Assembly: GCF_000826655.1 (NCBI RefSeq)
Contig: NZ_JXJO01000017.1
Coordinates: 372,001 to 436,000 of the forward strand
Source: Psychroserpens damuponensis
GTDB lineage: Bacteria > Bacteroidota > Bacteroidia > Flavobacteriales > Flavobacteriaceae
Length of the DNA stretch: 64,000 nt
Reading direction: 5' to 3'
The translations under genes and the position numbers were made by a program. This document shows, in pieces, positions 1 through 57,348 of this stretch; position 1 is the stretch's first letter, and every line of letters starts with the position of its first letter. The notes under the pieces are model-generated. The model was not told the DNA's origin and searched no databases. It was given only the letters and a program-made list of their open reading frames with translations.

Positions 1-1335
1 ACGACGATAAACCACTTCTTCCATTGAGGCAAAATCATCAGGCCCAACAACCGTTTTTATATTAAAATGACGGTAATCCCTTTTACTTGGTTTTCCATCT
101 TTAAAAACAACACAAGCAGCTACAGGATTTGTACCTTGAATGTTTGAGTTATCAAAACATTCTATATGACGTGGCTCTTCTGTTAATCGCAAATCAACTT
201 TCATTTGCGCCATAATTCGGTTTGCATGACGGTCTGGATCCACGATTTTGACTTGCTTAAATCGCTCCATACGATAGTATTTTGCATTGCGAAGTGATAA
301 ATCTAAGATTTTCTTTTTATCACCCAATTTTGGCACAGTCACCTTAATATTTTCACCTAAATCAACTTTAAATGGGACGTAAACTTCTTTAGATGTGGAG
401 TTGAAACGTTGTCTAATTTCAGTAATAGATAATTCTAATAATTGTAAATTGGTTTCGTCTAGTTTCTTTTTAATTTCTAGCGTGTGCGACCTAATGATAC
501 TGCCATATGACAATTGTAAAAAATTAACATATGCATAACCTTCATCACTCATAATACTAAACACATCAACGTTGCTAATTTTAGGGTTAACAATTGTTGA
601 TTTTGCTTGATAGTTTTCTAAAACCTCAACTTTTTCTTTAATTCGCTGTGCATCTTCAAAATGCATATGTTGCGCAAACCTGTTCATTTGGGCTTTAAAT
701 TGAGATAGTGAATCCTTAAAATTTCCTTTTAAAATTTCGCGTATAGCAACAATATGCGCATTGTATTCGTCTTCTGTTTGTAAGTTTTCACAAGGACCTT
801 TACAGTTTCCTAAATGATATTCTAAACAAACTTTATATTTACCTGAGTTAATTTTTTCTTCGGAAAGATTATAATTACACGTTCTGAGATTATAAAGCCC
901 TTTTATTAAATCTAACAACGTATGAACCGTTTTCATACTTGTATATGGTCCAAAATATTCCGAACCATCTTTAAACATACGACGCGTACTAAATACTCTA
1001 GGAAATCGTTCATTTTTTATGCAAATCCAAGGGTAAGATTTATCATCTTTTAGCAATACATTATAGCGTGGCTTATATTTTTTTATAAGGTTATTCTCGA
1101 GTAAAAGCGCATCGGTTTCTGTCTCTACTACGATATGCTTTATACTTGCTATTTTTTTTACAAGGACTCTAGTCTTACCGTTGTCGTGAGTTTTTGTAAA
1201 GTAAGAACTCACTCTTTTTTTAATATTTTTTGCTTTTCCTACATAGATTAACTTATCCTCAGCATCAAAATATTGATACACACCAGGTTGGTGAGGCAGT
1301 GTTTTAATTTGTATTTCTAGCGTAGGTTTATCCAT
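1..1335 (-). CDS. uvrC: UvrABC system protein C, partial (3' end beyond the window)
   Basis: Incision subunit of nucleotide excision repair; it cuts on both sides of a lesion bound by UvrB. The visible 445 codons are the N-terminal part of a family usually near 600 residues. The N-terminus reads as a GIY-YIG nuclease domain (PGVYQYF, then LIYVGKAKNIKKRVSSYF, with the catalytic Arg and Tyr in place). A Cys-containing motif NCKGPCE near residue 180 is typical of UvrC, and the UvrB-binding UVR region follows. The C-terminal RNase H-like nuclease and HhH domains lie off the left edge. The start is the ATG at 1335. It is divergent from the rim genes with a 120-base gap. One copy of the CTTCGGAAA word lies inside it (858-866), encoding LSEEK. 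Confidence 0.95.
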   Translation of the reverse strand, partial: MDKPTLEIQIKTLPHQPGVYQYFDAEDKLIYVGKAKNIKKRVSSYFTKTHDNGKTRVLVKKIASIKHIVVETETDALLLENNLIKKYKPRYNVLLKDDKSYPWICIKNERFPRVFSTRRMFKDGSEYFGPYTSMKTVHTLLDLIKGLYNLRTCNYNLSEEKINSGKYKVCLEYHLGNCKGPCENLQTEDEYNAHIVAIREILKGNFKDSLSQFKAQMNRFAQHMHFEDAQRIKEKVEVLENYQAKSTIVNPKISNVDVFSIMSDEGYAYVNFLQLSYGSIIRSHTLEIKKKLDETNLQLLELSITEIRQRFNSTSKEVYVPFKVDLGENIKVTVPKLGDKKKILDLSLRNAKYYRMERFKQVKIVDPDRHANRIMAQMKVDLRLTEEPRHIECFDNSNIQGTNPVAACVVFKDGKPSKRDYRHFNIKTVVGPDDFASMEEVVYRR

Positions 1336-2756: not shown

Positions 2757-2790
2757 TTAAATCGCAACACAGTATATAATTAAAAGTAGA

Positions 2791-3762
2791 ATGAGTAATA
2801 AAGACGTTTTAGAAATATTAGGCGAAAAAATTGCTTTAGGTAAAAGTGCCATTGTTAACTACGAAGTCGCTAAACTTCACACACGCAACACCTTAGAAAT
2901 CCCTATTATTATAGAACGCTCTAGAAAACCTGGACCAACATTATTAATCACAGCTGGTATTCATGGTGATGAAATTAATGGTGTAGAAATTGTTAGACAA
3001 ATTATAGCTAAAGGCATTAATAAACCTAAGGTTGGAACTACAATTTGTGTACCTGTAATTAATGTATTTGGTTTTTTAAACATGGATCGGTTATTTCCTG
3101 ATGGCAGAGACCTTAACCGTGTTTTCCCAGGCAGTGCTAATGGATCGCTAGCGAGTAGAGTTGCAAATTTTGTAATGAAAGAACTAGTGCCACATGTAGA
3201 TTTTGCAATGGATTTTCACACAGGAGGATCTGGTCGTTTTAATGCAGCGCAAATTCGCATTGTTAGAGAAGACCCAAAACTTTTAAATTTGGCCCATGTT
3301 TTTGGAGCACCTTTTATTTATTACTCTAATAATTTAAATAAGTCATTTAGAAATGCATGTAGCAAATCTGGTGTTCCAATGCTTTTATTTGAAGGTGGAA
3401 AATCCTTTAATATCCATGATAACATCACTAATACTGGTGTTAATGGTGCCAAACGCGTTTTACATCATTTTGGCATGCTAACATCCAAATTTAAAGTCTC
3501 TAAACCTAAAACTGAAGCTATAATTATAGAAGAAAGTAGATGGCTAAGAGCTAAATTTTCTGGGATGTTTAAACCCACAGCAACTATAAATTCTTATGTA
3601 GAAAAAGATGCTGTTTTAGGTAATATTACAGATCCCTACGGAAGTTTTAACCACTTTGTAAAAGCACCAAATTCAGGTTATATTTTTAATGTAAATGAAT
3701 CTCCAATTATTTATCAAGGTGATGCCATTTTTCATATCTCAACAGCATTACAAGATGACTAA
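2791..3762 (+). CDS. Succinylglutamate desuccinylase/aspartoacylase family protein
   Basis: Zinc-dependent deacylase of the AstE/AspA branch of the M14 carboxypeptidase fold, 323 residues. Zinc ligands are seen in GIHGDEINGVE (His and Glu, about residue 58) and in DFAMDFHTGG (His, about residue 144); the conserved RDLNRVFPG motif is also present. Family members remove acyl groups from amino acids, but the substrate here cannot be read. The position directly after rimK makes a role connected with glutamate modification plausible but unproven. Its last 8 bases overlap the next gene. Confidence 0.85.
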   Translation: MSNKDVLEILGEKIALGKSAIVNYEVAKLHTRNTLEIPIIIERSRKPGPTLLITAGIHGDEINGVEIVRQIIAKGINKPKVGTTICVPVINVFGFLNMDRLFPDGRDLNRVFPGSANGSLASRVANFVMKELVPHVDFAMDFHTGGSGRFNAAQIRIVREDPKLLNLAHVFGAPFIYYSNNLNKSFRNACSKSGVPMLLFEGGKSFNIHDNITNTGVNGAKRVLHHFGMLTSKFKVSKPKTEAIIIEESRWLRAKFSGMFKPTATINSYVEKDAVLGNITDPYGSFNHFVKAPNSGYIFNVNESPIIYQGDAIFHISTALQDD

Positions 3763-4318
3763 AGCACAATTACGAACACAATATAAATTACTTCGGAAAT
3801 CGCTTTCCGAAGAAAACATAGAAGATTTAAGTTTAAAAATCGCTAACCAACTACTGCAACTTCCAATTTGGAATCATGAGTGCTATCATATCTATTTATC
3901 TATTACAGAGCATAACGAAGTTAATACAGACTACATCTTAAATATTCTCTCCGGAAAAGATAAACACATCGTCATTGCTAAAAGTGATTTTTCTACTCTA
4001 GACATGACACACTTTTTACTTACAGATAGTACTAAAATCAAAAAAAACGAATGGAACATCCCTGAACCCATTGGAGGAATTTCAATAGGTACAGAGCAAA
4101 TAGACGTCGTTTTTATACCATTACTAGCATTTGATAATACTGGTCACAGAGTTGGTTATGGCAAAGGGTTTTACGATCGATTTTTAAGCAAATGTAAACC
4201 CGAAACCATTAAAATTGGACTCTCTTTTTTTAATAGCGAAGAAAAAATTACTAATGTCTTAGAAAGTGACATTCGTTTAAATTATTGCGTCACACCAAAT
4301 AAAACCTACACGTTTTAA
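3755..4318 (+). CDS. 5-formyltetrahydrofolate cyclo-ligase
   Basis: Converts 5-formyl-THF to 5,10-methenyl-THF with ATP, a folate salvage step. About 187 residues, the usual size. The family motif is seen as IPLLAFDNTGHRVGYGKGFYDRFL near residue 130, split here between the substrate loop and the GYGKGFYDR phosphate loop. An upstream in-frame ATG (3695) would add 20 residues inside the preceding gene; I chose 3755 because MTKAQLRTQYKLLRKSL is the normal family N-terminus. The codons for LRKSLSEE (3791-3812) hold a perfect inverted pair of CTTCGGAAA. The gene is convergent with lspA, overlapping it by 4 bases with no terminator between them. Confidence 0.9.
   Translation: MTKAQLRTQYKLLRKSLSEENIEDLSLKIANQLLQLPIWNHECYHIYLSITEHNEVNTDYILNILSGKDKHIVIAKSDFSTLDMTHFLLTDSTKIKKNEWNIPEPIGGISIGTEQIDVVFIPLLAFDNTGHRVGYGKGFYDRFLSKCKPETIKIGLSFFNSEEKITNVLESDIRLNYCVTPNKTYTF
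3791..3812. repeat. Facing pair of the CTTCGGAAA word (9-bp arms, 4-nt loop)
   Basis: CTTCGGAAA (3791-3799), loop TCGC, TTTCCGAAG (3804-3812): a perfect 9-bp inverted repeat inside the 5-formyl-THF cyclo-ligase gene. It is made of two copies of the word that is enriched throughout the window. The arrangement resembles the paired uptake sequences of Neisseria and Haemophilus in form only. Confidence 0.9.
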
Positions 4319-5061: not shown

Positions 5062-5094
5062 GTATTTTATGTGTTCATTTCCGAAGAAAATAAA

Positions 5095-5479: not shown

Positions 5480-8400
5480 TTATAATTTTTGAATAGATAG
5501 TTTGGTATTTACATCATCAAAAGCAATTTCTATACCAGTATCTAAAGTTTCTAAAATATCTAACTTATCGGTTAAAGTTTCGGTTTTGATATAATCAATA
5601 TTAGTTTCTATAGCATTTTCAATCTGCGCATCTTTTTGAAACTGAACACTAATTCTATCGGTTAATTCAAATCCAGAATCTTTACGCAAGTTTTGAATTC
5701 TATTTACGAGCTCTCTTGCAATTCCTTCTTTTTTCAAATCCTCTGTTAATGTAACATCTAAAGCTACTGTTAATGCTCCTGAACTTGCCACGAGCCATCC
5801 TTCAATATCTTTTGATGTGATCTCAACATCAGACAGTTCTAATGTAATACTTTTTCCGTTGATTTCAACATCTAAAACACCGTTTTGCTCGATTTTTTTA
5901 ATATCATCAGCCGTAAAACTGTTAACTACCTGAGCCACAGCTTTCATATCTTGCCCAAAACGAGGTCCTAATACTTTAAAATTAGGTTTTATTTGTTTTA
6001 CTAATATATCACTTGCATCTTCTAAAACCTCAACTGCTTTTACATTAACCTCAGACTTAATTAAGTCTGCAACTGCCATAATCTCTTCCTTTTGCTCATT
6101 AGAATCAATAGGAATCATGATTTTTTGTAATGGTTGTCGCACTTTAATTTTCTCCTTAGCTCTTAATGACAACACTAAAGAAGAAATGGTTTGCGCACTT
6201 TCCATTTTACGTTCTAAACTCTTATCCACATATGATTCATCATACACTGGGAAGTCAGCCAAATGTACACTCTCAAAGTTTTCTTTGTGTGACACCTGTG
6301 TTAAATCTAAGTAAAGTCTATCCATAAAGAAAGGTGCAATTGGTGCTCCTAACTTAGCAATAGTTACCATACACGTGTAGAGTGTTTGGTATGCCGAAAT
6401 TTTATCGGTTTCATAATCACCTTTCCAGAAACGTCTTCTACTTAAACGCACAAACCAGTTACTCACATAATCTTGAGTAAATTCTGAAATTGCTCGCGCA
6501 GCCTTTGTTGGTTCGTATTCAGCATAAAAAGCATCTACTTTTTGAATTAATGTATGTAATTCTGACAAAATCCAACGGTCAATTTCTGGACGTTCAGCTA
6601 GAGGAATATCCTCTTCACTGTAAGTAAATTTATCTAAATTGGTGTACAACGTAAAGAATGAATACGTGTTATATAATGTCCCAAAAAACTTACGTTTTAC
6701 CTCCTCAATACCATCGAGATCAAATTTTAAATTGTCCCAAGGGTTGGCATTCATGATCATATACCAACGTGTAGCATCGGCTCCATAAGTATCTAAAGTT
6801 GTAAATGGATCTGTTGCGTTACCAAGACGTTTGGACATTTTTTGTCCGTTTTTATCTAAAACCAATCCATTAGACACTACATTTTTATACGCTACAGAAT
6901 CAAAAACCATAGTACCAATAGCATGTAATGTATAGAACCATCCACGAGTTTGATCTACACCTTCTGCTATAAAATCTGCTGGGTACGATTTATGATCATC
7001 TATTAATTCTTTATTTTCGAAAGGGTAATGCCATTGCGCATAAGGCATAGAACCAGAGTCAAACCATACATCAATCAAATCGCTCTCGCGTGTCATTGGT
7101 TGACCGTTTGTTGACACCAAAATAATATCATCAACAATATTTTTATGTAAATCTATTTTCGCATAGTTTTCTTCGGAAAAGTTGCCAACTTCAAAATCGT
7201 CAAAAATATCTTTATCTAGTACTCCTGCAGCAACGGCTTTTGCCATTTCCGATTTTAATTCCTCTACAGAACCTATACAAATTTCTTCAGTTCCATCTTC
7301 TGTTCTCCAAATTGGCAACGGAATTCCCCAATAACGAGATCTTGATAAATTCCAATCATTGGCATTTGCTAGCCAATTTCCGAAGCGACCAGTACCAGTA
7401 GATTTTGGTTTCCAGTTTATGGTATCATTTAGTTCAACCATACGTTCTTTCACATCTGTCACCTTAATGAACCATGAATCTAACGGATAGTATAAAATTG
7501 GTTTATCTGTACGCCAACAATTTGGGTAACTGTGTTTGTATTTTTCAACCTTAAAGGCTTTATTTTCTTCTTTTAATTTAATGGCAAGCTCAACATCTAT
7601 TGAACGCTCTGGTGCTTCACCATCATTATAGTATTCATTTTTTACGTACTTACCAGCAAACTCACCTAGTTCTGGTCTAAAACGACCTTGTAAATCTACA
7701 AGAGGCACCAAGTTATCGTTCTCATCTTTTACTAAAAGTGGCGGAATTTCTGGTGTGGCTTGTTTTGCAACCAAGGCATCATCTGCTCCAAAAGTAGGTG
7801 CTGTGTGTACGATTCCTGTACCATCTTCGGTTGTTACGAAATCTCCTGTAATGATTCTAAATGCATTTTCAGGGTTATCGTTTGGAAGTGCGTAAGGCAA
7901 TAACTGTTCGTAAGTAATGCCAACTAAATCGTTACCTACAAATTCTTTAACAACGTAGTATGGTATTTTTTTGTCACCAGATTTATAGTCTAATAAAGCA
8001 GCTTTATCGTCTACTAAATTAAACTTTCCGGAGAATTGATAATTCACTAGTTTTTTAGCCAATACCACATTCATTGGCTTAAACGTATACTGATTGTAGG
8101 TTTCTACTAAAACGTATTCAATTTTTGGTCCAACGGTAAGCGCTGTATTACTTGGCAAGGTCCAAGGTGTTGTCGTCCAGGCTAAGAAATAGATATCACC
8201 TTCGTTTTGTAAAAAGTCTGGTAACGAATCTGCATTAGCTTTAAATTGAGCGACAACCGTTGTATCTGTAACATCTTGATAGGTTCCTGGTTGGTTTAAC
8301 TCATGAGAACTTAAACCAGTACCTGCTTTTGGCGAGTATGGTTGTATGGTGTAGCCTTTATAAAGTAAGCTTTTGTTATATATTTCTTTGAGCAACCACC

Positions 8401-9806: not shown

Positions 9807-10274
9807 TTACTCTTGTCTATAAAACGATTTTTTAAAACGCTTTGCTTTTTGTAAAAGCAATTTCACCTCATCATCACTTGCATTAGATGATGATACTACT
9901 TTTTTATCGCCATTTGTATAGATTTTTTTATCGTTTTGATTGGGAGTTGATGAGACTATATAAACCAATTTATGATTTTGAAAATAATAATATTCTGTAA
10001 CTGTGTTTTTAGATATTTCAACATTTTTTATTCTGAAAAGCTCTTTGCTATCTTTATCAAAAAGCACTGAGTATTTAAATGTACCAATATCTTCAAATCC
10101 TTTCTCATCGGTGAGTGCACCTTCGGTAAATTCTTCTTTTAAAGTTTTATTATTATCAATTTTAGAGACATAAATCTTTGTTGTATTGATAATCGTATCA
10201 GTTGATTTTTTAGTTTTTGTTCCGCAGGAAACAAAAATCAATGTAAGTACTAGTATTGCAATTGTATTTCTCAT
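9807..10274 (-). CDS. Small lipoprotein of unknown function
   Basis: This 155-residue protein starts with a lipoprotein signal peptide ending in the lipobox IFVSCG (Cys about residue 17), so it is predicted to be lipid-anchored in the periplasm or outer membrane. The rest is polar; the stretch TVTEYYYFQNHKLVYIVSS looks like beta strands of the kind seen in small repeat-type lipoproteins. No catalytic motif is seen. It is the first gene of a pair with the secreted protein that follows, and sits behind a terminator that ends the large T9SS gene. Confidence 0.72.
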   Translation of the reverse strand: MRNTIAILVLTLIFVSCGTKTKKSTDTIINTTKIYVSKIDNNKTLKEEFTEGALTDEKGFEDIGTFKYSVLFDKDSKELFRIKNVEISKNTVTEYYYFQNHKLVYIVSSTPNQNDKKIYTNGDKKVVSSSNASDDEVKLLLQKAKRFKKSFYRQE

Positions 10275-10362: not shown

Positions 10363-13300
10363 TTACTGCGCTAAAATCTTTTTGGTTTTTATGCCGTTTT
10401 CGGTTTTAAAATACGCTACATAAGTTCCTGTTGATAATGTATTAAGTTGTAAACCATTATTTAAATCTTGGTAATCTACATCTCTAAATTCTTGAACGGT
10501 TTGTCCCAACATATTAATAATTTGCACATGCTCAACATTTTTTTGAAGTCCTTTTGCATACAATTTATTGGTGCTTGTATTGAAATAAATCAAGTTATAT
10601 TGGTAATCTTGATCTACTGTAGACAATGCTTCTCCTGGTTGAAATACAATTTCAAACCTGTTGTTGAAAGTTCCACTTTCCGAAGAAAACTCATAAGCGT
10701 CATTGTTTCTTAAGTCAAACGTTTCTCCTGTGACGTTATCTTTTATATATACATCTTGATCGTCATCAAAATTAACAAGATCTGTAATTTTTATAGTGTA
10801 ATTGTAAGCTCCCGAGGTTTTAATTACTAATGGTACAACCTTATCATCTACAATTGGAGCATAAGCTTGTATGAGCATAAGTTGATCATCTAAAACTAAA
10901 CTCATATCATCATCACCTACACCAGAATTTCCTGCTTCATAACCGTAATCAAAGTCGTCTGTTGTAATATCACTAAACGCTAATAGTAATTCTCGTCTAG
11001 CTGCAGGACCATTAACAGAATTAAACTCTAAACGTATTTTTTGCATCACATGTTCTTCGGAAATTGAACCGTCTTGAGTATTCTCGCTGGTTCTTAAAAA
11101 CACTGAGCCATTATCTGAAGTTCCATCTGCATCTGCTTCTTTAACAAAAACACGTTGACTGTTGCTAAATATCACATTTCCATTAGCAATTATTTCGGTT
11201 GTAAAACCTTGACCAACCGGAAGATATCTTGTTGGCAACTTAGTCCCTTCTTCTCCACCACTGTTTCCACCATCAAAACCTACGAATTGTGATGCTCTGA
11301 CTGAGCCTGATAATGTATATGTTGCATAACCACCATTATATTCATCTAAATAATGTGAGTTCCCACTCCATTGTTGCCATAAATTAATAGGACCAGCAAT
11401 GGTTATTCCTGCATTATCTAAAATGAATTTATCTAGATCTATTGCCGAAGGGTATGGGTTACCTAGCAGATAATCTGTTCTAGAAACTCCAGGAACAGAA
11501 CCGCTTCCACCAGTGTCTGTAACATTTACTAGTATGGTTCCATTATTTGGCTTTCCTTCAAAAATGTATTGTTGCTCACTACCAGAGTTTCCTGTTCCTT
11601 TTTGTGTATATCCTACTCCTGGTTGGATATTTGTATTGCCATCTATTGAAACATAGTCATTATAAGTCACTCCGTTTTCGTAGAGATAAGTCCATCGTGT
11701 ACTTACTTTACCAACTTCATCATGTGCCGTAGTAAATTGGATGTTACTACCATCACCTTTTTTGAGTAAGTTTAATTTATAATTGGAGTTGTTAGTATTG
11801 CTTGAACTTGTATTATTATCTGTTAATGTTGATGCACTTGCAGCGCCAACTGGAGAAGCCCAATAATTATACCAATAAACACTAGACGCACCTTCTTGTC
11901 GTCTTAATATTTTACCAACAGATGATGTTACTAAATCGCTATGATTTCCTTGAATTAATTGTGAATCATCTTGTAAGTCTAAAGTTCCATTGAGTTCAAA
12001 ATACCACGTATTATCAACTTTGTGGTCTCCATTAATTGTTAATTTTTGATTTGCATCAATAAACAACCCTAGGTTGGTATGAGAATTTGTAGATGTAACT
12101 TCATTTTTAATGTGAACGATACTCCAATCTTTATTTGTTACAGCATTTTCAATATCCCAAATATCACCATGTAACCATGTGTTTTGAGCACTCCAATCTC
12201 CATTAGCAATTGTTTGAAAAGGCATTGGAGCCGTTTGCAATTGTACAGATGAAATATTGGTAACTTTAAGTGATCTTCCGTATGCAGAATAATCATCAAT
12301 AGTATTACCCTTAATTTCAGACATTGGATAATACGCTAAAAGGTTAGACCATAACACATTGTTTGAATTAGAATAATCTATAATGTCTTTATCTATTAAT
12401 GTCCCTCTAAGATTTCCGGAGACATTAGAAATCTCTTGAAACACCATTTGCTGAATTTGAGTAGCAGATAACGCTTTATTAAAAACTCTTACCTCATCTA
12501 ATTCTCCTTTAAAATATTCTTTATTACTTAAATTACTTGAACGTCGTCCAATTTCAAAAGCGCCATTAGTATTTGAAGTGACCTCAATATTTGCACCAGT
12601 AGATCCAGTATTAAAACCTACTAACTCACCATCAATATACAACTCATTTCGTCCAGTTAAGGAAGAAAAAACACCTGTTATATGATGCCATTCGCCTTTG
12701 TTTATTGTTGCACTTGTTACCGAACGTGTTGTATTTCCTACGGTTTTTGTTAAGAACCCAATGGTATTACCATTCTCAATATATAGTCTACAACTGAGGT
12801 CTTCTCCTGCTATTGTCATTGTACCAGAAGCTGTATTATCAATTTTAGCCCAAGTCATTATTGTAACTTGATCTAACCCATCAACAAAACCATCTACGGT
12901 TAGATAATCATCTTCACCATCAAAATCTAATTGTGCATTTGATGTTGGATTGACATCAAACAAATCGCGATAATCAACATCTCCTCCTGCTAAAACATCA
13001 CTATCTGCATCTGGTAATTGAGTTGAAGGGTTGCTAATACTTTCATTAACATCAAAAACAGGATCATTTGGACTGCCAATTTCGAAATTATTATCTAATC
13101 CATCGTTATCGTCATCATTTCCAGAAACTGAGTTTGCTAATCCGTTTTCTAAAATATCTGGTGTACCATCATTATCAGAATCTGTATCGAGAAAATCTGG
13201 AATTCCATCACCATCTGTATCTATAGGAGTTAAACCTCCTGTATAGTTAGCATCTACTCCTGTACTTGAAAAAGTTCCAGAAGGCTGTACATACCCAACA

Positions 13301-33287: not shown

Positions 33288-33364
33288 TTAATCCGTTAAA
33301 ATTTCAGAATAATTAATACAAACCAATCTATTTTTTGAGGTTTTCTTCGGAAATACAAAAACTC

Positions 33365-40922: not shown

Positions 40923-40942
40923 ATTATTTTCTTCGGAAAAAA

Positions 40943-42163: not shown

Positions 42164-43429
42164 ATGAATTTAAAACAAAGAGACAAAAAACACCTTTGGC
42201 ATCCATTAAAACAACACCAACTACACCCAGAAAGCTTGGCCATTGTAAAAGCAAAAGGATGCATTCTCACCGATGAAAATGGTAACGAGTATATAGATGC
42301 TATTTCTTCATGGTATACATCTATGTATGGACATTGCAATGATTATATTATCGAGCAGACGTATAAACAAATGCAGCAACTGGATCAAATCATGTTTAGT
42401 GATTTCACCCATGAACCTGCCATAAAATTATCTGAAGACCTCATAAAAATACTTCCTAAAGGTCAAAACAAGATTTTTTTTAATGATAATGGATCAACTG
42501 CTGTAGAAGCTGCCATCAAAATGGCCTTACAGTTTCACTTTAATAATAATGATTCACGTTCTGTTTTTATCGCTTTTGAAAACGGATTTCATGGCGACAC
42601 CTTTGGTGCCATGAGTGTTTCGGGTTTATCAGTATATAACGGTCCTTTTGAGGAGTTTTTAATAGACGTTAAGCGCATACCAACACCAAACGGATCAAAT
42701 ACAGAACAAATTTTAGACCTCCTAAAAACGTTCAATACAAAACATAGCATCGCAGGATTTATCTACGAACCCTTAGTACAAGGTGCCGCAGGAATGAAAA
42801 TTCATGATGCCAAGGGTTTAAACGACATTCTATCCTTTTGCAAGCAACATCAAATTTTAACCATTGCAGATGAAGTCATGACGGGTTTTGGCAAAACAGG
42901 ACAACATTTTGCATCACATCATATAGAGACCAAACCTGATATAATCTGTTTGAGTAAAGCGCTAACCGCAGGATTAATACCAATGGCAATTACATCGTGT
43001 ACTCAAAATATTTATGATGCGTTTTTAAGTAATGATATGGCAAAAGGTTTTTTTCACTGCCATACTTACTCTGCAAATCCAATTGCTTGTGCTACCGCAA
43101 TTGCTGGGATTGAGCTGTTATTATCTTCGGAAATTCAACAAAACATCAAACGTATTTCTAAAGCACACCAAGATTTCTCTCATCACATAAATAACCATCC
43201 AAAAGTAAAAGCCACAAGACATCTAGGCGTCATTTTTGCTTTAGATCTCAACACTAAAATGGAACGTTATGGAGATTTAAGAGAGAAGCTTCTTAAATTC
43301 TTTATGGATAGAGGTGTGTTTTTAAGACCTCTTGGTAATACGATTTATATACAAGTGCCTTATATTATTTCTCCAGGAGAACTTAACAAAGTATATCAAG
43401 TCATTGAAGAGGCTTTGGAGATTGTTTAG
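42164..43429 (+). CDS. bioA: Adenosylmethionine-8-amino-7-oxononanoate aminotransferase
   Basis: Makes DAPA from KAPA with S-adenosylmethionine as amino donor; PLP enzyme, 421 residues. HLWHPLKQHQ at the start, DAISSWYTSMYGH, FNDNGSTAVEAAIKMAL, ENGFHGDTFGAMSVSG, DEVMTGFGKTG and the PLP lysine in CLSKALTAGLIPM are family-typical. TCTTCGGAAATTC occurs inside at about 43134. A palindromic repeat follows the stop by 11 bases. Confidence 0.95.
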   Translation: MNLKQRDKKHLWHPLKQHQLHPESLAIVKAKGCILTDENGNEYIDAISSWYTSMYGHCNDYIIEQTYKQMQQLDQIMFSDFTHEPAIKLSEDLIKILPKGQNKIFFNDNGSTAVEAAIKMALQFHFNNNDSRSVFIAFENGFHGDTFGAMSVSGLSVYNGPFEEFLIDVKRIPTPNGSNTEQILDLLKTFNTKHSIAGFIYEPLVQGAAGMKIHDAKGLNDILSFCKQHQILTIADEVMTGFGKTGQHFASHHIETKPDIICLSKALTAGLIPMAITSCTQNIYDAFLSNDMAKGFFHCHTYSANPIACATAIAGIELLLSSEIQQNIKRISKAHQDFSHHINNHPKVKATRHLGVIFALDLNTKMERYGDLREKLLKFFMDRGVFLRPLGNTIYIQVPYIISPGELNKVYQVIEEALEIV

Positions 43430-43532: not shown

Positions 43533-44696
43533 TTGCAACACCCAATTTCTATAACTGCATTATCATCTATTTCTCCGTTAGGTAATACACCTGACAGTAT
43601 CTGGAATAACTATCTAAATGATTCCCATTGTTTTACTAAAAAAGACGGAGTTTTAGTAGCCACATTTCCGAAGAAATTAAAAGCAGTTATAGACACATTA
43701 CGACAATCTAACGTTAAGTATAAATCGCTAGACAACTCGGTGTTATTTGCCATTTTCGCATCAAGACAAGCCATTAAAACCGCAGGATGGTCATCTACCG
43801 ATAATTTTGGAATCAATATTGGATCGTCAAGAGGTGCAACAGCTCTGTTTGAACATTACCATGAGGAGTTTCTAAAAAATGATAAAGCTAATACCTTATC
43901 ATCACCAACCACAACTTTAGGAAACATCTCCTCTTGGGTGGCTCATGATTTACAAACCAAAGGCCCAGAAATTTCGCATTCAATAACATGCTCTACCGCA
44001 TTACATGCTATGCTTAATGGCGTTGCTTGGATCAAATCTGGTATGTGTAACAAATTTTTAGTTGGTGGTAGCGAAGCGCCTTTAACGCCTTTTACTATTG
44101 CACAAATGCAAGCCCTAAAAATTTATTCTAGAGCAAACTGTCAATCAGAGCGAAGCGAAAAATCCATTTACCCAAACCAAGCCCTAAACCCAAATAAAAC
44201 CGAAAACGCCATGATTCTTGGTGAAGGTGCAGCTATGGCTTGTTTAGAATTGGGAGCACACAACAATGCTTTAGCAAAAATTATTGGTGTAGGTTATGCT
44301 ACCGAAATTTTAAAACACAACGCATCCTTATCAACAAATGCTATTTGTTTTCAACGGTCTATGACAATGGCTTTAGGCGACATAAACCCAGATGACATTG
44401 ATGTTATCGTTACACATACACCAGGAACTATTAAAGGTGATCAGGCAGAAATAAATGCAATTAATACGGTTTTTTGTAACAAAACTCCTTCATTAACTAC
44501 TAATAAGTGGAAGATAGGTCACAGCCTTGGTGCTTCCGGACTTTTAAATATTGAAATGGCAGTTATGATGTTACAACATCAAAAATTCATCTCAGTACCT
44601 TACCTAAAAGCCAACGCACCGCAACACATCAAATACATACTTGTAAATGCAGTAGGATTTGGTAGCAATGCAGTATCTATTTTACTATCAAAATAA
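43533..44696 (+). CDS. Beta-ketoacyl synthase in the biotin cluster
   Basis: 387 residues, with a TTG start (no closer ATG; MQHPISITALSSISPLGNTP is a normal KAS beginning). The thiolase-fold triad is present: Cys in HSITCSTALHAM (about residue 153), His in VTHTPGTIKGDQAE (about 290) and His in KIGHSLGASGLLN (about 330). It should condense acyl chains on ACP. The position after bioA suggests a step in pimeloyl supply, but no bioC or bioH is nearby. The stretch CQSERSEKS (about residues 205-213, bases 44138-44166) looks like an inserted dispersed repeat. Confidence 0.83.
   Translation: MQHPISITALSSISPLGNTPDSIWNNYLNDSHCFTKKDGVLVATFPKKLKAVIDTLRQSNVKYKSLDNSVLFAIFASRQAIKTAGWSSTDNFGINIGSSRGATALFEHYHEEFLKNDKANTLSSPTTTLGNISSWVAHDLQTKGPEISHSITCSTALHAMLNGVAWIKSGMCNKFLVGGSEAPLTPFTIAQMQALKIYSRANCQSERSEKSIYPNQALNPNKTENAMILGEGAAMACLELGAHNNALAKIIGVGYATEILKHNASLSTNAICFQRSMTMALGDINPDDIDVIVTHTPGTIKGDQAEINAINTVFCNKTPSLTTNKWKIGHSLGASGLLNIEMAVMMLQHQKFISVPYLKANAPQHIKYILVNAVGFGSNAVSILLSK
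44138..44166 (+). repeat. Dispersed repeat fragment inside the ketoacyl synthase gene
   Basis: CAATCAGAGCGAAGCGAAAA encodes QSERSEK in a loop of the ketoacyl synthase. It resembles the intergenic copy CATTCAGAACGCAGTGAAGA at 46939-46963. The peptide QSERSE is known to me as a typical trace of such repeats in Bacteroidota proteins. Confidence 0.55.
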
Positions 44697-45386: not shown

Positions 45387-46785
45387 TTTAGGCTTTCCTA
45401 TAGCAGCCATTGCTGCCATATTATTTGTCTTTGTTTTTATTATCATTTTAATTAAACGCTACAAACGTTGTCCTTCTGACCGTATTTTAGTGGTCTACGG
45501 AAAAGTAGGAGGCGGACAATCGGCCAAATGTATTCATGGTGGAGCAGCCTTTATAATTCCTGTATTTCAGGATTATGAATTTTTAGATTTAACACCAATT
45601 TCTATTGAGGTAAATCTTGTAAACGCTTTATCTAAACAAAACATTCGTGTAAACGTACCTTCTCGTTTTACCATTGGTGTCTCTACAGAACCTGGTGTGA
45701 TGCAAAATGCTGCCGAACGTCTTTTAGGTTTAGGCGCTCAAGATGTTCAAGAATTAGCCAAAGAAATCATTTTTGGTCAATTACGTCTCGTGGTTGCCTC
45801 TATGGATATTGAAGAAATTAATAACGATAGAGATAAATTTTTAACCAATATTTCTCAAAGTGTTGAGACTGAATTAAAGAAAGTAGGTCTTAAGTTAATC
45901 AACGTAAACATTACAGATATCGTTGATGAGTCTGGCTATATTGAAGCACTTGGTAAAGAAGCTGCAGCACATGCCATTAACGCAGCACGTAAATCGGTTG
46001 CAGAGAAAACTAGAGATGGATCTATTGGTGAAGCAAATGCTGTACAAGATGAAAGATCACAAGTTGCTGCAGCAAATGCACAAGCTGTAGAAGGAGAAAA
46101 TACAGCAAAAATTGCCGTTGCAAATTCAGATTCGTTACGTCGTCAACGTGAAGCAGAAGCTGAGCGTGTGGCAATCGCCTCAGAGAAAGTACAAAGTGCA
46201 AAAGCGTTACAAGAATCGTATGCTGCAGAGCAAGAAGCAGAATCTGCAAGGGCTGAGCGTGAGCGTTCGTCTCAAATGGCAGATATTATTGTACCTGCAG
46301 AAATAGATAAACGCAAAGTAGAGATCGATGCAGAAGCTGAAGCTGAGCGTATAAGACGTAAAGCAAAAGGTGAAGCCGATGCGATATTATTTAAGGCACA
46401 AGCCGAAGCACAAGGTCAATTTGAAATCTTAACGAAGCAAGCTGCTGGTATGGAACAAATTGTTAAAGCTGCCGGAAATTCTAGTCGTGATGCTGTACTA
46501 TTATTAATTGCAGATAAATTACCAGAATTGGTGAAAACACAAGCCGAAGCTATTAAAAACATCAAAATTGATAAAGTAACTGTTTGGGATCAAGGTGGAA
46601 ATGGCGAAGATGGAAAATCATCAACCGCAAATTTCTTATCAGGAATGTATAAATCAGTGCCACCACTTCAAGAAATGTTTAACATGGCTGGTATGGATTT
46701 ACCTGAGTATTTAAAAGGTAAAGACAAAATACAAGCTGAAGACGCTCAAATTCTTCCGAAGAAAAAAGAAGACGATAAGAGCTAA
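45358..46785 (+). CDS. Flotillin-family protein
   Basis: 475 residues. An N-terminal membrane helix (IAAIAAILFVFVFIIILI), an SPFH/band 7 domain (CPSDRILVVYGKVGGG to VNITDIVDESGYIEALG, about residues 38-200), and a long Ala/Glu/Arg-rich coiled coil (about residues 200-370, with REAEAERVAIASEKVQSAKA). Flotillins organise membrane microdomains; clients are not known. The ATG lies inside the NfeD gene. A strong terminator follows. Confidence 0.92.
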   Translation: MNYLVTQNFDLGFPIAAIAAILFVFVFIIILIKRYKRCPSDRILVVYGKVGGGQSAKCIHGGAAFIIPVFQDYEFLDLTPISIEVNLVNALSKQNIRVNVPSRFTIGVSTEPGVMQNAAERLLGLGAQDVQELAKEIIFGQLRLVVASMDIEEINNDRDKFLTNISQSVETELKKVGLKLINVNITDIVDESGYIEALGKEAAAHAINAARKSVAEKTRDGSIGEANAVQDERSQVAAANAQAVEGENTAKIAVANSDSLRRQREAEAERVAIASEKVQSAKALQESYAAEQEAESARAERERSSQMADIIVPAEIDKRKVEIDAEAEAERIRRKAKGEADAILFKAQAEAQGQFEILTKQAAGMEQIVKAAGNSSRDAVLLLIADKLPELVKTQAEAIKNIKIDKVTVWDQGGNGEDGKSSTANFLSGMYKSVPPLQEMFNMAGMDLPEYLKGKDKIQAEDAQILPKKKEDDKS

Positions 46786-47083: not shown

Positions 47084-48052
47084 ATGAACTCTACATTAAA
47101 AGCGTTACTTGTTTTTGCATGTTTTACATGGTCAACAATATATTCTCAAACAGACCCAAACATCTTTGAAAAATTTGAATCAAAATTCTATGAAATTGAT
47201 GGTTACAAGATCAATGTAGAAGTTTTGGGTGAAGGTGATCCCATTTTCTTTTTACCAGGAGGTCCAGGAAATTCTCATGATTATATGCAAGGTGCTTTTG
47301 GTCACTATTACAAAACCAATACGGTTGTGTTTTTTGATTGGTTAGGTCGTGGCAAGAGTGATGATGCTAAAAACGTTAATGAATATAGCGTTGAAGCCGA
47401 TGTTGAACTTATTGAAAAATTGCGTAAACTCTTAAAATTTGACAACATCTCTCTTGTAGGTCATAGCTACGGAACCGTTCCTGCACAAGCCTATGCCATC
47501 AAATATAAAAACAAGGTCAAAACTATGGTCTTAATCAATGGGTTTCATTCTGGAGCCATGTGGCAAGCCAATTGCGATAGTTATAACCATTATGCGAAAA
47601 CACATTTTCCAGAGAAATGGGTGGCTGTAGATTCACTTCGGAAATTGGGCTACCTTTCCAGTCAAGAGCCTTTAAAAACGGTGTATGGTAATTTCCCAAC
47701 AAAGTATATTTACTATCATAATACGACGCTTAGATCTAAAGTTCCGAAGACAACATATAGAGGTTGGGCAGGAGATGTATACACTACAATTATTGGTAAA
47801 GATGGTGATTTTGATGTGTCTGGCAGTATGATAAATCAAGATTATAGACAACAATTAAAAGATGTAAAAGCAAAAACCTTAATCATTGCAGGACGTTATG
47901 ATGGTGTATCTACTCCAGAATTTGCTGTGCAATACAAAACCTTTATGCCTGAGGCTCAGTTTGAAATGTTTGAGCAAAGCGGACACAATCCATACCTTGA
48001 AGAACCACAAAAATTTTATGAAATTTTTGACGAGTTTATGGGTCTAAAATAA
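47084..48052 (+). CDS. Secreted alpha/beta hydrolase (proline iminopeptidase-like)
   Basis: 322 residues with a signal peptide (to YSQ, about residue 21). Fold and motifs: oxyanion region PIFFLPGGPGNSHDY, nucleophile LVGHSYGTVPA (Ser about 128), acid in IIAGRYDGVSTPE and His in FEQSGHNPYLEEP near the C-terminus. The GGPG motif is typical of the S33 proline iminopeptidase group. It lies just before bioB, but the signal peptide speaks against a BioH-type cytoplasmic role. Confidence 0.85.
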   Translation: MNSTLKALLVFACFTWSTIYSQTDPNIFEKFESKFYEIDGYKINVEVLGEGDPIFFLPGGPGNSHDYMQGAFGHYYKTNTVVFFDWLGRGKSDDAKNVNEYSVEADVELIEKLRKLLKFDNISLVGHSYGTVPAQAYAIKYKNKVKTMVLINGFHSGAMWQANCDSYNHYAKTHFPEKWVAVDSLRKLGYLSSQEPLKTVYGNFPTKYIYYHNTTLRSKVPKTTYRGWAGDVYTTIIGKDGDFDVSGSMINQDYRQQLKDVKAKTLIIAGRYDGVSTPEFAVQYKTFMPEAQFEMFEQSGHNPYLEEPQKFYEIFDEFMGLK

Positions 48053-49496: not shown

Positions 49497-49638
49497 AAAG
49501 CCATAATAACATTTTCTTTTTTCTTCGGAAATGTGACAACTCCAAAACCCTTATCGTTTTTTAAACGTATAACTTTAACAAACAATTAATTTCAATTGGT
49601 AACGTTTTCTTAACTTTAAACCTAAATTTTTTTCACTT

Positions 49639-50499
49639 TTGAAACTCAACCTTCAAGATATTCCTCGCGTTAAAAACATTAGCAAAGAGGACTTTATAAA
49701 ACAGTACTTTAAGCCACAAAAACCTGTGGTGATTGAGCAATATATCAATGATTGGCCTGCCTATAAAAAATGGAATCTTGATTATATGAAAACTGTTGCT
49801 GGTGATAAAATTGTACCCTTGTATGATGATCGTCCTGTAGACTATAAAGATGGTTTTAATGAACCACATGCAACAATGAAAATGAGTGATTATGTAGACC
49901 TCTTAAAAAATGAGCCTACCAAATACCGTATTTTTTTATGGAATGTGTTGAAAGAAATTCCGCAGTTACAAAAAGATTATACCTTTCCTGATTTTGGGTT
50001 AAAACTCATGAAACGATTGCCAATGCTATTTTTTGGAGGAAAAGATTCTCATACCTTCATGCATCACGATATTGATTTGGCTAATATTTTCCATTTTCAT
50101 TTTGAAGGCAAAAAGCAATGTATTTTGTTTGACCAAGACCAAAATGACTATTTGTATCACATTCCGCATTCATTAATTACACGAGAAGATATTGATTTTT
50201 CTAATCCAGATTTTGAAAAATGGCCGGCATTAAAAAAAGCTAAAGGTTGGCAATGCGAATTACAACATGGTGAAGTTTTATACATGCCAGAAGGATATTG
50301 GCACTACATGAAATACCTTACTCCTGGTTTCTCAATGAGTTTAAGAGCTATTGCAAGACATCCCAAAAATTTTGGAAAAGCAGTTTACAACGTATTAATA
50401 ATGCGCAATTATGATAATCTCATGAGACGTTTAAAAGGTCAACAATGGATTGATTGGAAAAACCAACAAGCCATCGTTAGAACGAATAATAAAACTTAA
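49639..50499 (+). CDS. JmjC/cupin_8-like protein
   Basis: 286 residues, reading from a TTG at 49639; the next ATG would cut 49 conserved residues. The cupin-like domain of FIH/JmjC type is seen: KPVVIEQYINDWPAYKKW near the N-terminus, iron ligands HHDIDLAN (HxD, about residue 148) and a distal His in YMPEGYWHYM (about residue 220). Such enzymes are Fe(II)/2-oxoglutarate oxygenases that hydroxylate proteins or RNA-associated proteins; the target is unknown. TTCTTCGGAAAT lies in its upstream region (49521-49532). Confidence 0.8.
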   Translation: MKLNLQDIPRVKNISKEDFIKQYFKPQKPVVIEQYINDWPAYKKWNLDYMKTVAGDKIVPLYDDRPVDYKDGFNEPHATMKMSDYVDLLKNEPTKYRIFLWNVLKEIPQLQKDYTFPDFGLKLMKRLPMLFFGGKDSHTFMHHDIDLANIFHFHFEGKKQCILFDQDQNDYLYHIPHSLITREDIDFSNPDFEKWPALKKAKGWQCELQHGEVLYMPEGYWHYMKYLTPGFSMSLRAIARHPKNFGKAVYNVLIMRNYDNLMRRLKGQQWIDWKNQQAIVRTNNKT

Positions 50500-54600: not shown

Positions 54601-57348
54601 AGTGGGAGTCTAGAAGTTTTATTTTCTACGGGTTGTTCTTCTTCAAATTCATTTACAGTGATTGATTCTGTAATTGGTGGCTGTGAAACTGCTGCTGTAT
54701 CAACTGTTCCTTCAGATTTATTTATTAGTGAAATTTCTGATGCTTCGACTGGAAGTTCTTCACTCTTAGAAATTTTTAATGGAACCGCAAGTACAATCAA
54801 CTTAGCCAATTATAGCATTAGAGTTTTTAATAACGGAAACGCAACACCATCAACAACATCATTTCTTGTAGGTAGTTTAGCTCCTGGAGAACTTCATGTT
54901 ATAAGTATAGGGACAACATCATGTGATTTATCTGCAACAGGACTTGCTAGTGGTTTACCTGATCAAAGTTTTAATAGTGCTGGTGGAATTAATTTTGATA
55001 ATAATAGCTCTGATGCCATACAACTCTTTAATGGAGGAACTCCAATTGATTCATTTGGAGAAATAGGAAGTTCAACTTGGGCAAACGGTTTAGGTATTAA
55101 TGGTGATGGTGTTAACTATAGAAGACAAAATACTGCTGCTACATTACCAACGACAACTTTTGATATTACAGAATGGGACGAATTTGATTGGACATCTTGT
55201 GGAGACTCTGATTATAGTAATTTTGGGCTTTATGATTTTTCTCTTGGAGTACCACCAACAGTTTCAATACTAAGTGATCCAACGTTTAGCTGTGCAACAT
55301 CTACCTCATTGTCTATAACAGCTACTGAAGGTGTACCTTCAGGATTTGGTTTAGTATACCAATGGTATTATTTAGCTCCTAATGCAACAGCTTTTGTTGT
55401 TGTACCTAACAATGCAGATTTTAATAATGTCACAACAGATACTTTGGAAATTGTAAATAATTTGGCATACAATGAATATCAATTTTATTGTCAAGTACGT
55501 GAAAATACTGCCACTTGTTATACAGCTAGTAACGCAGTTAAGTTAGTCGCAGATGGTGCAGTATGGGATGGTACCAACTGGTCTACTCCACCAACAATTG
55601 ATAAGATTGCGATAATAAATGGTGATTACAATACTAGTATTGGTACCAATGGCCAAACAAGTTTTGAAGCATGTCAACTTATAGTAAATCCAACATACAC
55701 TTTAGATATTGCAAACAATACGTTTGTTAAAGTACAAAACAATGTTACAGTTAACGGAAACATTGTTGTTTCAACAGACGGTTCATTTGTACAAGTTGAT
55801 GATTTAGCCATTGTTAATGGTGATGTATTAAGTACGAGAAATAAAATTATGGTAGAAAAGGAAACGGCTCCTATGGCTACGTATCAAGAATATACCTATT
55901 GGAGTTCTCCTGTTTTTGGTGAGCTTTTAAATGATGGACTTTCCGAAGCCTCTACTACAAGACGCTTTTGGTATAATGCTCAAAATTATTTAGATGCTAC
56001 TCAAGAAAACATGAATGATGATGCTACCAATGCAGGACAAGATGATATTGATGATAATGCTGACGATTGGATAACAGCTACAGGCACAGACCCAATGTTA
56101 CCTGGTGTTGGATATGCGTCAACCCACAATAGTATTGGATTTATGCCTGCACAATATATATACGTTTTTGAAGGTCCATTTAATAATGGTGTAATCAATG
56201 TTCCTATTTATAGAAATGATTCTGAAACTAATGATAACAACTGGAACTTTATTGGTAACCCTTACCCTTCTGCAATTGATGCAGATGCATTTTTAGCCAC
56301 CAACACGAGTATTGATCAAAATGTTAATGGAACAGATGGAGCCATTTACTTTTGGTCACACAATACAGCTGCAGATGGAGATACAAACGGTAATGAAAAC
56401 TTAAACTATACTCAAAGTGATTATGCAATTATTAATGGCACAGGACAAAATGCTGGAGGTGATGGTGTAGTTCCAACTAGACACATCCCGTCTGGGCAAG
56501 GATTTTTTGTTTCTATGAGTGATGCGTCAACTTCTACAGCTGTAAGTGGATCAATACGCACAACTGATGTGGTTTTTAATAACAGCATGAGAGTTACTGG
56601 TAATAACGATCAATTCTTTAGAACTTCAAACATTGTTCAATACAATAAAATACGTTTAGATTTAACTTCAGATAATGGAATTTTTAACCAAATACTTGTA
56701 GGCTATGTAAATGGCGCAACCAACAATGATGATGGGATGTATTACGATGCTAAAAGAAATTTATCTAACAACGCTAGTTCCTTACTCTATTCATTAATAA
56801 ATCATACTAGTGATATAAAATTAGCCATACAAGGTAAAGAAGTCAATAGTTTAACTCTTGAAGAGGTGATACCTTTAGGATTCTACACCTCAATAGATGA
56901 AGCAACACTATACAAACTATCTATTGCAGAACTTGAAGGTGACTTTATGAATGAAAACACAGTATACCTTAAGGATAAACTTATGAATATTACACATAAC
57001 TTAAGTGCTAATGATTATACGTTTACTTCGGAAATTGGAGAATTCAACAACCGTTTCGATATTGTATTTCAACCAGAAACACTTTCGGTTAACGAGCAGG
57101 AGTTAACGCCTAACGATTTAACTATAATAGAACTAGGTAGTGGAGAAGTTAGATTTTCCGTAGAAAAAAATATAACAATCAACACTGTTGAAATCATAGA
57201 TGTATTGGGTAGAACTATTTATAAGTTAAGCGGTCAAAACAGTACTGAAACTTATAATTTATCTAACTTAAGTCAAGCGACTTATATTGCTAGAGTGACA
57301 CTTTCTAACGGACAAGTTATTACAAAAAAAGCTATAAAAAGGAATTAA
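51685..57348 (+). CDS. 1887-residue T9SS multidomain surface protein
   Basis: Signal peptide (to FGQ). Domains in order by eye: N-terminal jelly-roll-like region (FETNLSGYSHTP to NIVLDGT); Ig-like (PTISAQPANAIRVIPNTATF, about residue 310); fibronectin III-like pair (about 410-640); GEVED domain (AWIDWNQNGNFNDSGEE, EVEDYTV, about 690-790); choice-of-anchor D (AEINVKGNNITI to FDIQGNA); IPT/TIG-like (about 920-1000); lamin-tail domain (LFISEISDASTGSSSLLEIF, about 1015-1170); Ig-like; the surface module with YTYWSSPVFGEL and IGNPYPSAIDADAF; and a type A sorting domain ending ITKKAIKRN. Predicted to be displayed or released by T9SS; ligand unknown. Confidence 0.86.
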   Translation: MKKNYSLIFIAFLCAILSGFGQVPTTIDFETNLSGYSHTPSQLPSADPGDQYFHRAMPGDGTIYESGGTYTNVTGNWMFVGSNPKAFNSGNSGVLTLDPINITGYSNLELSIDFGGVPNDWDASDEITVEYRYDSTGTWSTLYSLSSPVTNDPLELSGNAIGGVNTANGLVLTYALQTITTDNFTGTGTNLNIRIVCNSNANYEAFGLDNIVLDGTSSCTPPLDPTGTISGTTPACDNTTLTYTGAALPGTVNYWQTTATGTSTANNATGTFNATATGTYYVRTFLTATSCWSTGVASYAVVINSAPTISAQPANAIRVIPNTATFSVTASGSPTPTYQWQVSTNGGGTWANVTGGTGATTNSYTTGATAAAMHNNQYRCVVTNTCGTVNSNAATLTLSNTPTSNVTSAEGCFDDDSVILSWNAPGTGTPTGYMIFALDGGTDPAGTKTDANTYTANSDFSAATPVTPASLGRVVYKGTATTATITGLIEDNNYSFTVYSYVGEALTGWSGGGTGGSTVTNETAQGDVSNLAATPLTNQVNLSWNNPLPTSCFDQLIIVANEGAVVFTPSGTYPNTDVNYSGPNSIMYATTSTISSKGLSGLTNGTNYCFKVFIRRGSNWSEGVEVCAVPSLTYCPSSGDGTDGYETGIRRVQFNTIDNTTPIEDNDYSNFTSISTTVNLGDSYDLTVSVNTDGDYTNYNRAWIDWNQNGNFNDSGEEYDLGLADDPSGTNPSVVTDNSPLSIEIPTNAAIGATRMRVASKYNNYSTSCENGFDGEVEDYTVIVQQPSGAEINVKGNNITIANGFNAPYGLNNTLFGAQDVSTTSAFKSYFVENIGATTLNLTGAPRVEIIGAHPGDFNVVQQPAATIGSLADSEFRIVFSPTADGTRTATVRILNSDSDENTYEFDIQGNAVCSTVLTSSMWPTEGPENTEVTITSANDLTGATATINGDAMTIVSTSASELVVLVPAGAISGSLEVLFSTGCSSSNSFTVIDSVIGGCETAAVSTVPSDLFISEISDASTGSSSLLEIFNGTASTINLANYSIRVFNNGNATPSTTSFLVGSLAPGELHVISIGTTSCDLSATGLASGLPDQSFNSAGGINFDNNSSDAIQLFNGGTPIDSFGEIGSSTWANGLGINGDGVNYRRQNTAATLPTTTFDITEWDEFDWTSCGDSDYSNFGLYDFSLGVPPTVSILSDPTFSCATSTSLSITATEGVPSGFGLVYQWYYLAPNATAFVVVPNNADFNNVTTDTLEIVNNLAYNEYQFYCQVRENTATCYTASNAVKLVADGAVWDGTNWSTPPTIDKIAIINGDYNTSIGTNGQTSFEACQLIVNPTYTLDIANNTFVKVQNNVTVNGNIVVSTDGSFVQVDDLAIVNGDVLSTRNKIMVEKETAPMATYQEYTYWSSPVFGELLNDGLSEASTTRRFWYNAQNYLDATQENMNDDATNAGQDDIDDNADDWITATGTDPMLPGVGYASTHNSIGFMPAQYIYVFEGPFNNGVINVPIYRNDSETNDNNWNFIGNPYPSAIDADAFLATNTSIDQNVNGTDGAIYFWSHNTAADGDTNGNENLNYTQSDYAIINGTGQNAGGDGVVPTRHIPSGQGFFVSMSDASTSTAVSGSIRTTDVVFNNSMRVTGNNDQFFRTSNIVQYNKIRLDLTSDNGIFNQILVGYVNGATNNDDGMYYDAKRNLSNNASSLLYSLINHTSDIKLAIQGKEVNSLTLEEVIPLGFYTSIDEATLYKLSIAELEGDFMNENTVYLKDKLMNITHNLSANDYTFTSEIGEFNNRFDIVFQPETLSVNEQELTPNDLTIIELGSGEVRFSVEKNITINTVEIIDVLGRTIYKLSGQNSTETYNLSNLSQATYIARVTLSNGQVITKKAIKRN

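Follow-up and report, generated by a model that had tools for sequence, protein, structure and literature searches.

The window, the whole 64-kb stretch analysed here (G000:C16:372001-436000), lies in the genome of Psychroserpens damuponensis (G000, the own genome of this study, a 3.95-Mb assembly of 106 contigs) and carries 21 exact copies of the short word CTTCGGAAA, 13 on the plus and 8 on the minus strand, together with further sites of the form CT[TAG]CGGAA (Table 1). For the BioB protein of this genome, the top match with a name, at 96%, comes from an uncultured Psychroserpens. Scans of the window against Rfam and for tRNA genes returned no matches. A reading made earlier from the sequence only had listed 20 starts of the word, 18 of which stand; two are moved (43135 to 43125 and 43675 to 43665), and the minus-strand copy at 7377 had been missed. 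The twelve copies of the longer TTCTTCGGAAA that it reported were recovered (8 + 4 by strand), as were its near variants at 46753 (46754 by recount), 47742 and 61331, which are CT[T/A/G]CGGAA sites. Its five intergenic copies agree with the list of open reading frames, except that the one at 33345 falls just inside a TTG-started frame. The estimate of about 0.4 copies by chance is borne out by an order-3 Markov model, which gives 4.1 per 464 kb of own sequence, or ~0.6 per 64 kb. The facing pair at 3791-3812 is likewise real. Close pairs (≤30 bp) as a class occur at chance level, with 5 against 5.4 expected in G000 and 8 against 10.4 in the word-rich congener G006; 9 of these 13 pairs face each other.

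Table 1. Copies of the word and related sites in the 64-kb window (positions are those of the window)
Feature	Position	Strand	Remark
Exact CTTCGGAAA	858..866	+	T-rich upstream
Exact word	3791..3799	+	left arm of facing pair 3791-3812; within ORF 3695-4318
Exact word	3804..3812	-	right arm of facing pair 3791-3812
Exact word	5078..5086	-	intergenic
Exact word	7171..7179	+	coding
Exact word	7377..7385	-	coding; absent from earlier list
Exact word	10677..10685	-	coding
Exact word	11055..11063	+	coding
Exact word	15998..16006	+	intergenic; faces site at 16012
Exact word	16482..16490	+	coding; faces site at 16503
Exact word	20547..20555	+	coding
Exact word	22547..22555	-	coding
Exact word	33345..33353	+	probably intergenic (just inside TTG-started ORF)
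Exact word	40765..40773	-	coding
Exact word	40931..40939	+	intergenic
Exact word	43125..43133	+	coding; given as 43135 earlier
Exact word	43665..43673	-	coding; given as 43675 earlier
Exact word	47636..47644	+	coding
Exact word	49523..49531	+	intergenic
Exact word	55940..55948	-	coding
Exact word	57026..57034	+	coding
Other CT[TAG]CGGAA site	3636..3643	+	
Other CT[TAG]CGGAA site	10220..10227	-	
Other CT[TAG]CGGAA site	16012..16019	-	faces 15998
Other CT[TAG]CGGAA site	16503..16510	-	faces 16482
Other CT[TAG]CGGAA site	21055..21062	+	
Other CT[TAG]CGGAA site	21168..21175	-	
Other CT[TAG]CGGAA site	21984..21991	+	
Other CT[TAG]CGGAA site	27599..27606	-	
Other CT[TAG]CGGAA site	35746..35753	-	
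Other CT[TAG]CGGAA site	40739..40746	+	faces 40766
Other CT[TAG]CGGAA site	45495..45502	+	
Other CT[TAG]CGGAA site	46754..46761	-	near variant of earlier note
Other CT[TAG]CGGAA site	47467..47474	+	
Other CT[TAG]CGGAA site	47742..47749	-	near variant of earlier note
Other CT[TAG]CGGAA site	49958..49965	-	
Other CT[TAG]CGGAA site	57156..57163	-	
Other CT[TAG]CGGAA site	61331..61338	+	near variant of earlier note

Excess, placement and upkeep of the word

By direct counting, CTTCGGAAA occurs 1134 times in the whole genome (561 + 573), one copy per ~3.5 kb, as against 62 copies (36 + 26) of the reversed word. Sequence-level tests were made on 640 kb, ~16% of the own genome, and the Markov count run on this part of the genome leaves the excess standing. 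In 464 kb, 132 copies were observed where the order-3 model gives 4.1, a 32-fold excess, and when words seen at least 12 times were ranked by this measure, the 8-mer CTTCGGAA or an extension of it by one or two bases headed the lists of 8-, 9- and 10-mers. In the 640 kb, the exact word was found 177 times against 5.4 expected, words with one mismatch 260 times against 142, and words with two mismatches 1883 times against 1800.

The motif drawn from the samples is a T-rich flank followed by CT[T/A/G]CGGAA and usually an A. When single bases of the 9-mer are substituted, clear enrichment is seen for A or G at position 3 and for G or T at position 9; substitutions at any of the remaining seven positions exceed expectation by no more than ~2.5-fold, on small counts. 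Across 762 sites of G000 and G006 together, T is enriched over most of positions -12 to -1 with peaks at -3 (72%) and -2 (64%), weak preferences for A are seen further 3' of the core, and beyond flank and core the sites share little similarity. The form CT[TAG]CGGAA occurs 338 times in 640 kb of G000 and 424 times in 520 kb of G006, a density of 0.5-0.8 per kb. The word is not palindromic, CTTCGGAA and its complement TTCCGAAG being different, and in this it departs from HIP1-like palindromes.

With genes called approximately, by a simple codon-usage script, 199 coding copies of CTTCGGAA were counted in 640 kb of G000, compared with a mean of 11.7 and a maximum of 19 in 60 within-gene synonymous shuffles of 516 genes, while the intergenic copies numbered 42 against 0.9 by an order-2 Markov model. 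The corresponding values in G006 were 213 against 12.8 and 59 against 1.4. The excess thus survives when coding and intergenic copies are treated separately, and the earlier claim that protein constraint is insufficient is upheld; codon and protein constraint were ruled out because synonymous shuffles yield only ~12 of the 199 coding copies. Some of the excess in genes is not specific to this word, since control words also exceed the shuffles in genes, CTTCCGAA lying 3- to 5-fold above them in G000, G006, G313 and G048. Site density per kb in coding and intergenic DNA is 0.54 and 0.59 in G000, and 0.83 and 0.78 in G006. Genic copies use both gene strands and several frames, with an own-strand bias of 124/90 in G000 and 176/120 in G006.

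The two strands of the sequence are balanced, with 165/173 sites in G000 (binomial p 0.70) and 201/223 in G006 (p 0.31). Among ten sampled regions, several of them small, the most uneven large one has 83/101 by strand. Strand counts in other genera are 42/60 (G313), 21/25 (G111), 19/22 (G136), 46/39 (G276) and 35/29 (G048).

Conservation at orthologous places, which the sequence-only reading had proposed as a check, was assessed by aligning own sequence to stretches of relatives and counting CTTCGGAA at the same place, with 8-mers of the same composition as the control. HSPs shorter than 300 bp, below 65% identity or overlapping a better HSP were dropped, and the alignments with G020 and G013 (0 and 4 own CTTCGGAA, none kept) were set aside. 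G006, at 77.2% identity, keeps 19 of 24 words against 402 of 2902 controls (14%; Fisher p ~7e-13), whereas the word-poor congener G002, at 76.2%, keeps 3 of 21 against 330 of 2544 (p 0.75), which is the background rate; the two retention rates differ with Fisher p ~2e-5. The word-bearing L021 (79.6%) keeps 7 of 10 against 180 of 932 controls. A weak case is G003, word-rich by its 726 genome copies (71.7%), with only 5 of 17 kept against 154 of 2136, and G011 (291 copies, 76.8%) is near background with 4 of 21 (controls 302 of 2552). When the form is widened to CT[TAG]CGGAA, own sites are kept at 25 of 35 places in G006, 8 of 15 in L021, 7 of 27 in G003, 5 of 31 in G002 and 8 of 33 in G011. In the reverse direction, sites of the relative that also occur in G000 number 25 of 51 for G006, 8 of 10 for L021, 7 of 11 for G003, 5 of 9 for G002 and 8 of 17 for G011, and since only 25 of the 51 G006 sites are shared, the turnover of sites is real. 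Retention of the exact word far exceeds background in G006 but not in G002. Small as the numbers are (24, 21, 21, 17 and 10 sites), this maintenance is the best indication that the word has some function.

The word is also scarce in two imported-looking regions, both located by that very scarcity. A 360-kb stretch of contig C16 holds 182 sites, of which 2 lie within 131,336-192,500 (~61 kb) against 37 expected (P ~7e-14, the bounds having been chosen after the gap was seen). This segment (L007-L010) is read as an integrative conjugative element of ~61 kb because it encodes a tyrosine integrase, TraM, a TraG ATPase, a DUF5712 protein and ParB, and has a tRNA-Leu at its edge. Its accessory genes, judged by eye, include those for NHL-repeat and T9SS proteins and a HigA/ImmA-like protein. 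The second region, C1:161,792-199,849 (38 kb), has zero sites, and the ORFs listed for C1:160,001-180,000, which covers the inspected half of the gap, are by eye mostly of glycosyltransferase or polysaccharide type. Other, shorter gaps span 8-11 kb (G000) and 8-15 kb (G006).

Distribution among relatives and candidate machinery

The 21 other genus members carry between 110 and 1347 copies. In the family, 27 of 299 genomes, spread over 18 genera, reach 150 or more copies with the word no less than three times as frequent as the reversed word, a figure taken from the count table by eye; only some Flavobacteriaceae carry the word, and its distribution is patchy. Outside the family, no genome among ~220 exceeds 172 copies, and ratios there are unreliable because the reversed word is almost absent in some distant families.

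Genomes of five other genera were sampled more deeply. CTTCGGAA is the top 8-mer in four of them (G313, G111, G276 and G048); in G136 other words outrank it, and between genes it shows little excess (2 against 0.7). G318, from a sixth genus, likewise has it as top 8-mer, with T at -3. A T at -3 is preferred in all six of these genera, and the wider T tract is weak in G276 and G048. Tolerance of A or G at position 3 was not seen in G313 and G136. A related word, CTTCAGAA, is enriched in G313, G276 and others with no preference for T at -3 (32-33% in those two), and its intergenic copies are few but above expectation, with 7 against 0.6 in G276, 5 against 1.1 in G136 and 4 against 0.6 in G313. 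As a dialect it was set aside for its lack of a T preference at -3 and taken for codon context; it may be a minor dialect in G276 and G313.

Of the genes known to serve transformation, comEC was found in 22 of 22 genus members, word-rich and word-poor alike, and dprA in the own genome. No report of competence in Psychroserpens was found in the open literature. The own genome also has a DUF5689 lipoprotein that adjoins a CarboxypepD_reg/Plug outer-membrane protein. The gene of an Exo_endo_phos_3 nuclease (L172:4421-5491) stands beside this pair and possibly belongs to the same locus. Riemerella, which is placed in the Flavobacteriaceae (PMC8459023, PMC7965970), offers a point of reference, as the neighbouring genes RA0C_RS04920 and RA0C_RS04915, whose domains are of these kinds, are each described as essential for transformation of R. 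anatipestifer (PMC8459023), and Table 4 of that source lists Psychroserpens homologues for four machinery genes of this species. By domains and neighbourhood, the own DUF5689/outer-membrane locus resembles RA0C_RS04920/04915.

Two correlates of word number were considered. The type II/IV secretion-pilus ATPase PF00437, sought among the best six candidates per genome, gave matches above the cut-off for 66 of the 299 genomes, in a few cases through fragments. It is present in G000, G008, G318, G289, G125 and G149, and is not over the cut-off in the word-rich G005, G111, G048, G075, G063 and G098. The word does not track this ATPase, because many word-rich genomes are without a match, and it was rejected as a correlate.

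The other is a second DUF5689 protein, of T9SS type (L014:11763-13514), found in 8 of 22 genus members. Word densities are highest in its carriers, with which two genomes that lack the protein overlap, and within the genus its presence goes with word number at p ~8e-5 by a statistic that ignores descent. In a ComEC tree, from which the contaminated G012 was omitted, the eight carriers do not form one clade, and the contrasts G005/G015 and G000+G018/G009 have support of 92/88 and 88/92. In the family at large the link does not hold. Of its genomes, 101 have a match (among at most five or six candidates per genome); relatives occur alongside few words, for example in G070, G105, G126, G128, G328 and G214, and the word-rich G098, G313 and G318 lie outside the 101. 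As a candidate receptor the second DUF5689 protein, supported within the genus and unsupported family-wide, is a lead, no more. Between G000 and G006 (L187:3037-4698) its N-terminal part differs, while the C-terminal 366 residues, including DUF5689, are 77% identical.

Lipoprotein-like proteins of ~490 aa (L173, L174, L175, L176 and L181) have the N-terminal domain of the second DUF5689 protein. In several genera, 3.5-5.5 kb separate their genes from the start of a contig, and several of the genomes are word-rich; at a guess, these genes may adjoin an rRNA operon.

A candidate uptake signal and its alternatives

In a flavobacterium of the Psychroserpens type, the word probably serves as a DNA uptake signal, still a putative one. 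On this view, the T-rich stretch and CT[T/A/G]CGGAA would be recognised on double-stranded DNA by a receptor that belongs to the competence machine and sits at the cell surface or in the outer membrane. Binding would set off import, and ComEC, DprA and RecA would then carry in and recombine the strand. Fragments bearing the word would enter more often, so that alleles with the word would spread by recombination; through such uptake drive the word would accumulate on both strands, in and between genes, and would be restored when lost. DNA arriving by other routes, such as conjugative elements and polysaccharide loci, would initially be without the word, and lineages that lose the receptor or competence would lose it by mutation. 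Here we infer the binding of the word by a receptor, the competence of the organism and every step of import. Of the three roles suggested in the sequence-only reading (uptake word, Chi-like site, methylation site), the first fits the tests that were run, namely occurrence on both strands and in coding and intergenic DNA, maintenance, scarcity in two regions, patchiness and the presence of competence genes, while Chi is disfavoured. The fuller proposal that this is the first uptake signal in Bacteroidota, a self-DNA word of independent evolution, served by a machine independent of type IV pili and read in Psychroserpens by the T9SS DUF5689 protein (a relative of the one that Riemerella needs for transformation), with gain and loss of the receptor setting the rise and decay of the word, is rather unlikely to hold in all its parts.

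The best rival is that selection keeps the word as a site, usable in either orientation, for a protein of the nucleoid or of chromosome organisation (a condensin loader, a Noc/SlmA-like protein or a new architectural one), and a word that is widespread, lies in both orientations and is maintained in some lineages would suit such a protein. The explanation is nevertheless unlikely, for by itself it accounts neither for the scarcity in the conjugative element and the polysaccharide-type stretch nor for the large differences between congeners, and 0.5-0.8 CT[TAG]CGGAA sites per kb is a high density for sites of nucleoid or chromosome-organising proteins. A Chi-like hotspot for RecBCD or AddAB recombination, or a KOPS-like guide of segregation, shares with the word its shortness, its frequency and its non-palindromic form. 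Chi and KOPS are oriented with replication, and no such polarity was seen in the strand counts of 640 kb of G000 and 520 kb of G006; the balance of the strands overall and across the ten sampled regions therefore speaks against this account, as do the few copies held by several congeners. One 9-mer per ~3.5 kb resembles the frequency of Chi in E. coli, which has 1008 copies in 4.64 Mb, but these are a 6.7-fold excess over the 151 expected by base composition (PMC1939737), and the excess of the Psychroserpens word by the order-3 model is stronger. A Chi-like or KOPS-like role is thus very unlikely.

Marginally less probable again is a self mark, that is, a methylation or protection word of a defence or modification system. 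The scarcity of the word in imported-looking DNA would fit it, and so would the patchy distribution, which is like that of defence systems. However, modification systems usually cause avoidance of their sites, accumulation is not predicted by methylation alone, and methylases do not typically target asymmetric 8-mers flanked by T-rich DNA. Last, a mundane mix of codon-pair bias, RNA hairpins or terminators with C-UUCG-G loops, or remnants of repeat elements is hardly credible. The consensus can form a UUUC-UUCG-GAAA hairpin, judged by eye, and the coding excess of the control CTTCCGAA in four genomes points the same way. Yet the synonymous shuffles and the intergenic counts (12 against 199 and 42 against 0.9) oppose such a mix, as do the use of both gene strands and several frames and the little that the 762 sites share beyond flank and core. 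Terminators and hairpins in particular are disfavoured by coding copies in both orientations and by close pairs that are not in excess.

As a putative uptake signal, the word can be set beside known systems. The USS of Haemophilus influenzae and other Pasteurellaceae likewise has a 9-bp core in more than 1000 copies with an A/T-rich flank, on both strands and in coding and intergenic DNA. Its core, AAGTGCGGT, is unrelated in sequence to CTTCGGAA and belongs to another phylum; moreover, the T-rich flank in Psychroserpens adjoins the core on one side, and the Psychroserpens word, whose role in uptake is putative, shows no link to genes of pilus-type ATPases in the genomes scanned. The count given for the H. 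influenzae core is 1465 (PMC7811141), compared with 1134 for the Psychroserpens word, and that for the 10-bp DUS of N. meningitidis is 1892 (PMC7811141). The DUS of Neisseriaceae, for which ComP is the receptor, is similar in the scale of its copy number and in its differences between lineages. It is unlike the flavobacterial word in that the two sequences are unrelated, that the flavobacterial word has no clear dialects, and that its receptor, unlike ComP, is a hypothetical one. Neisserial ICEs have been found by their atypical DUS distribution (PMC7371117). Common to USS and DUS, and by analogy suggestive for the present word, is the combination of 1-2 thousand short asymmetric words on both strands, a core with an A/T flank (in USS) and an atypical distribution in imports.

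Nearer to Psychroserpens, the transformation of Riemerella is alike in that comEC, dprA and the DUF5689/outer-membrane pair occur in both; the likeness of the own locus to the Riemerella genes is one of domain content and gene neighbourhood. R. columbina is described as preferring its own DNA (PMC7965970, section 16), and Table 3 of the same source lists A/T-rich frequent words alone, with no uptake word established there. A strong preference for short motifs is stated in a 2020 paper (PMC7811141) for species in two families. In the open literature, a scope outside which lie most subscription papers and all bioRxiv preprints, no report of a flavobacterial uptake word was found among the papers listed. 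If confirmed, the word would be the first uptake mark outside Pasteurellaceae and Neisseriaceae, and a third group in another phylum would mean an independent origin of uptake words. Word-rich and word-poor species within one genus would then allow a comparative test of why such words evolve. Further gains would be an approach to the DNA-uptake machine of Flavobacteriia, about which little is known, a practical hint on how marine flavobacteria might be transformed, and a marker by which recently imported DNA could be recognised in their genomes.

Other repeated words

Among 80 named loci of 3-21 kb, for each of which the best three 8-mers were considered, no other uptake-like word was convincing save CTTCGGAA itself in L021. 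In the G006 stretches, TTTCAGAA has 67 intergenic copies against 6 expected; overall, 58% of its copies carry T at -3, and it may be an intergenic repeat family. Words around TTCGCGAA and CGCGAAAG are strongly repeated in 21 kb of L093, a Dokdonia MAG, and maybe form a palindromic repeat. In L110-L114 (G013), GATCCAGATG occurs at 14 copies per 100 kb against 0.24 expected.
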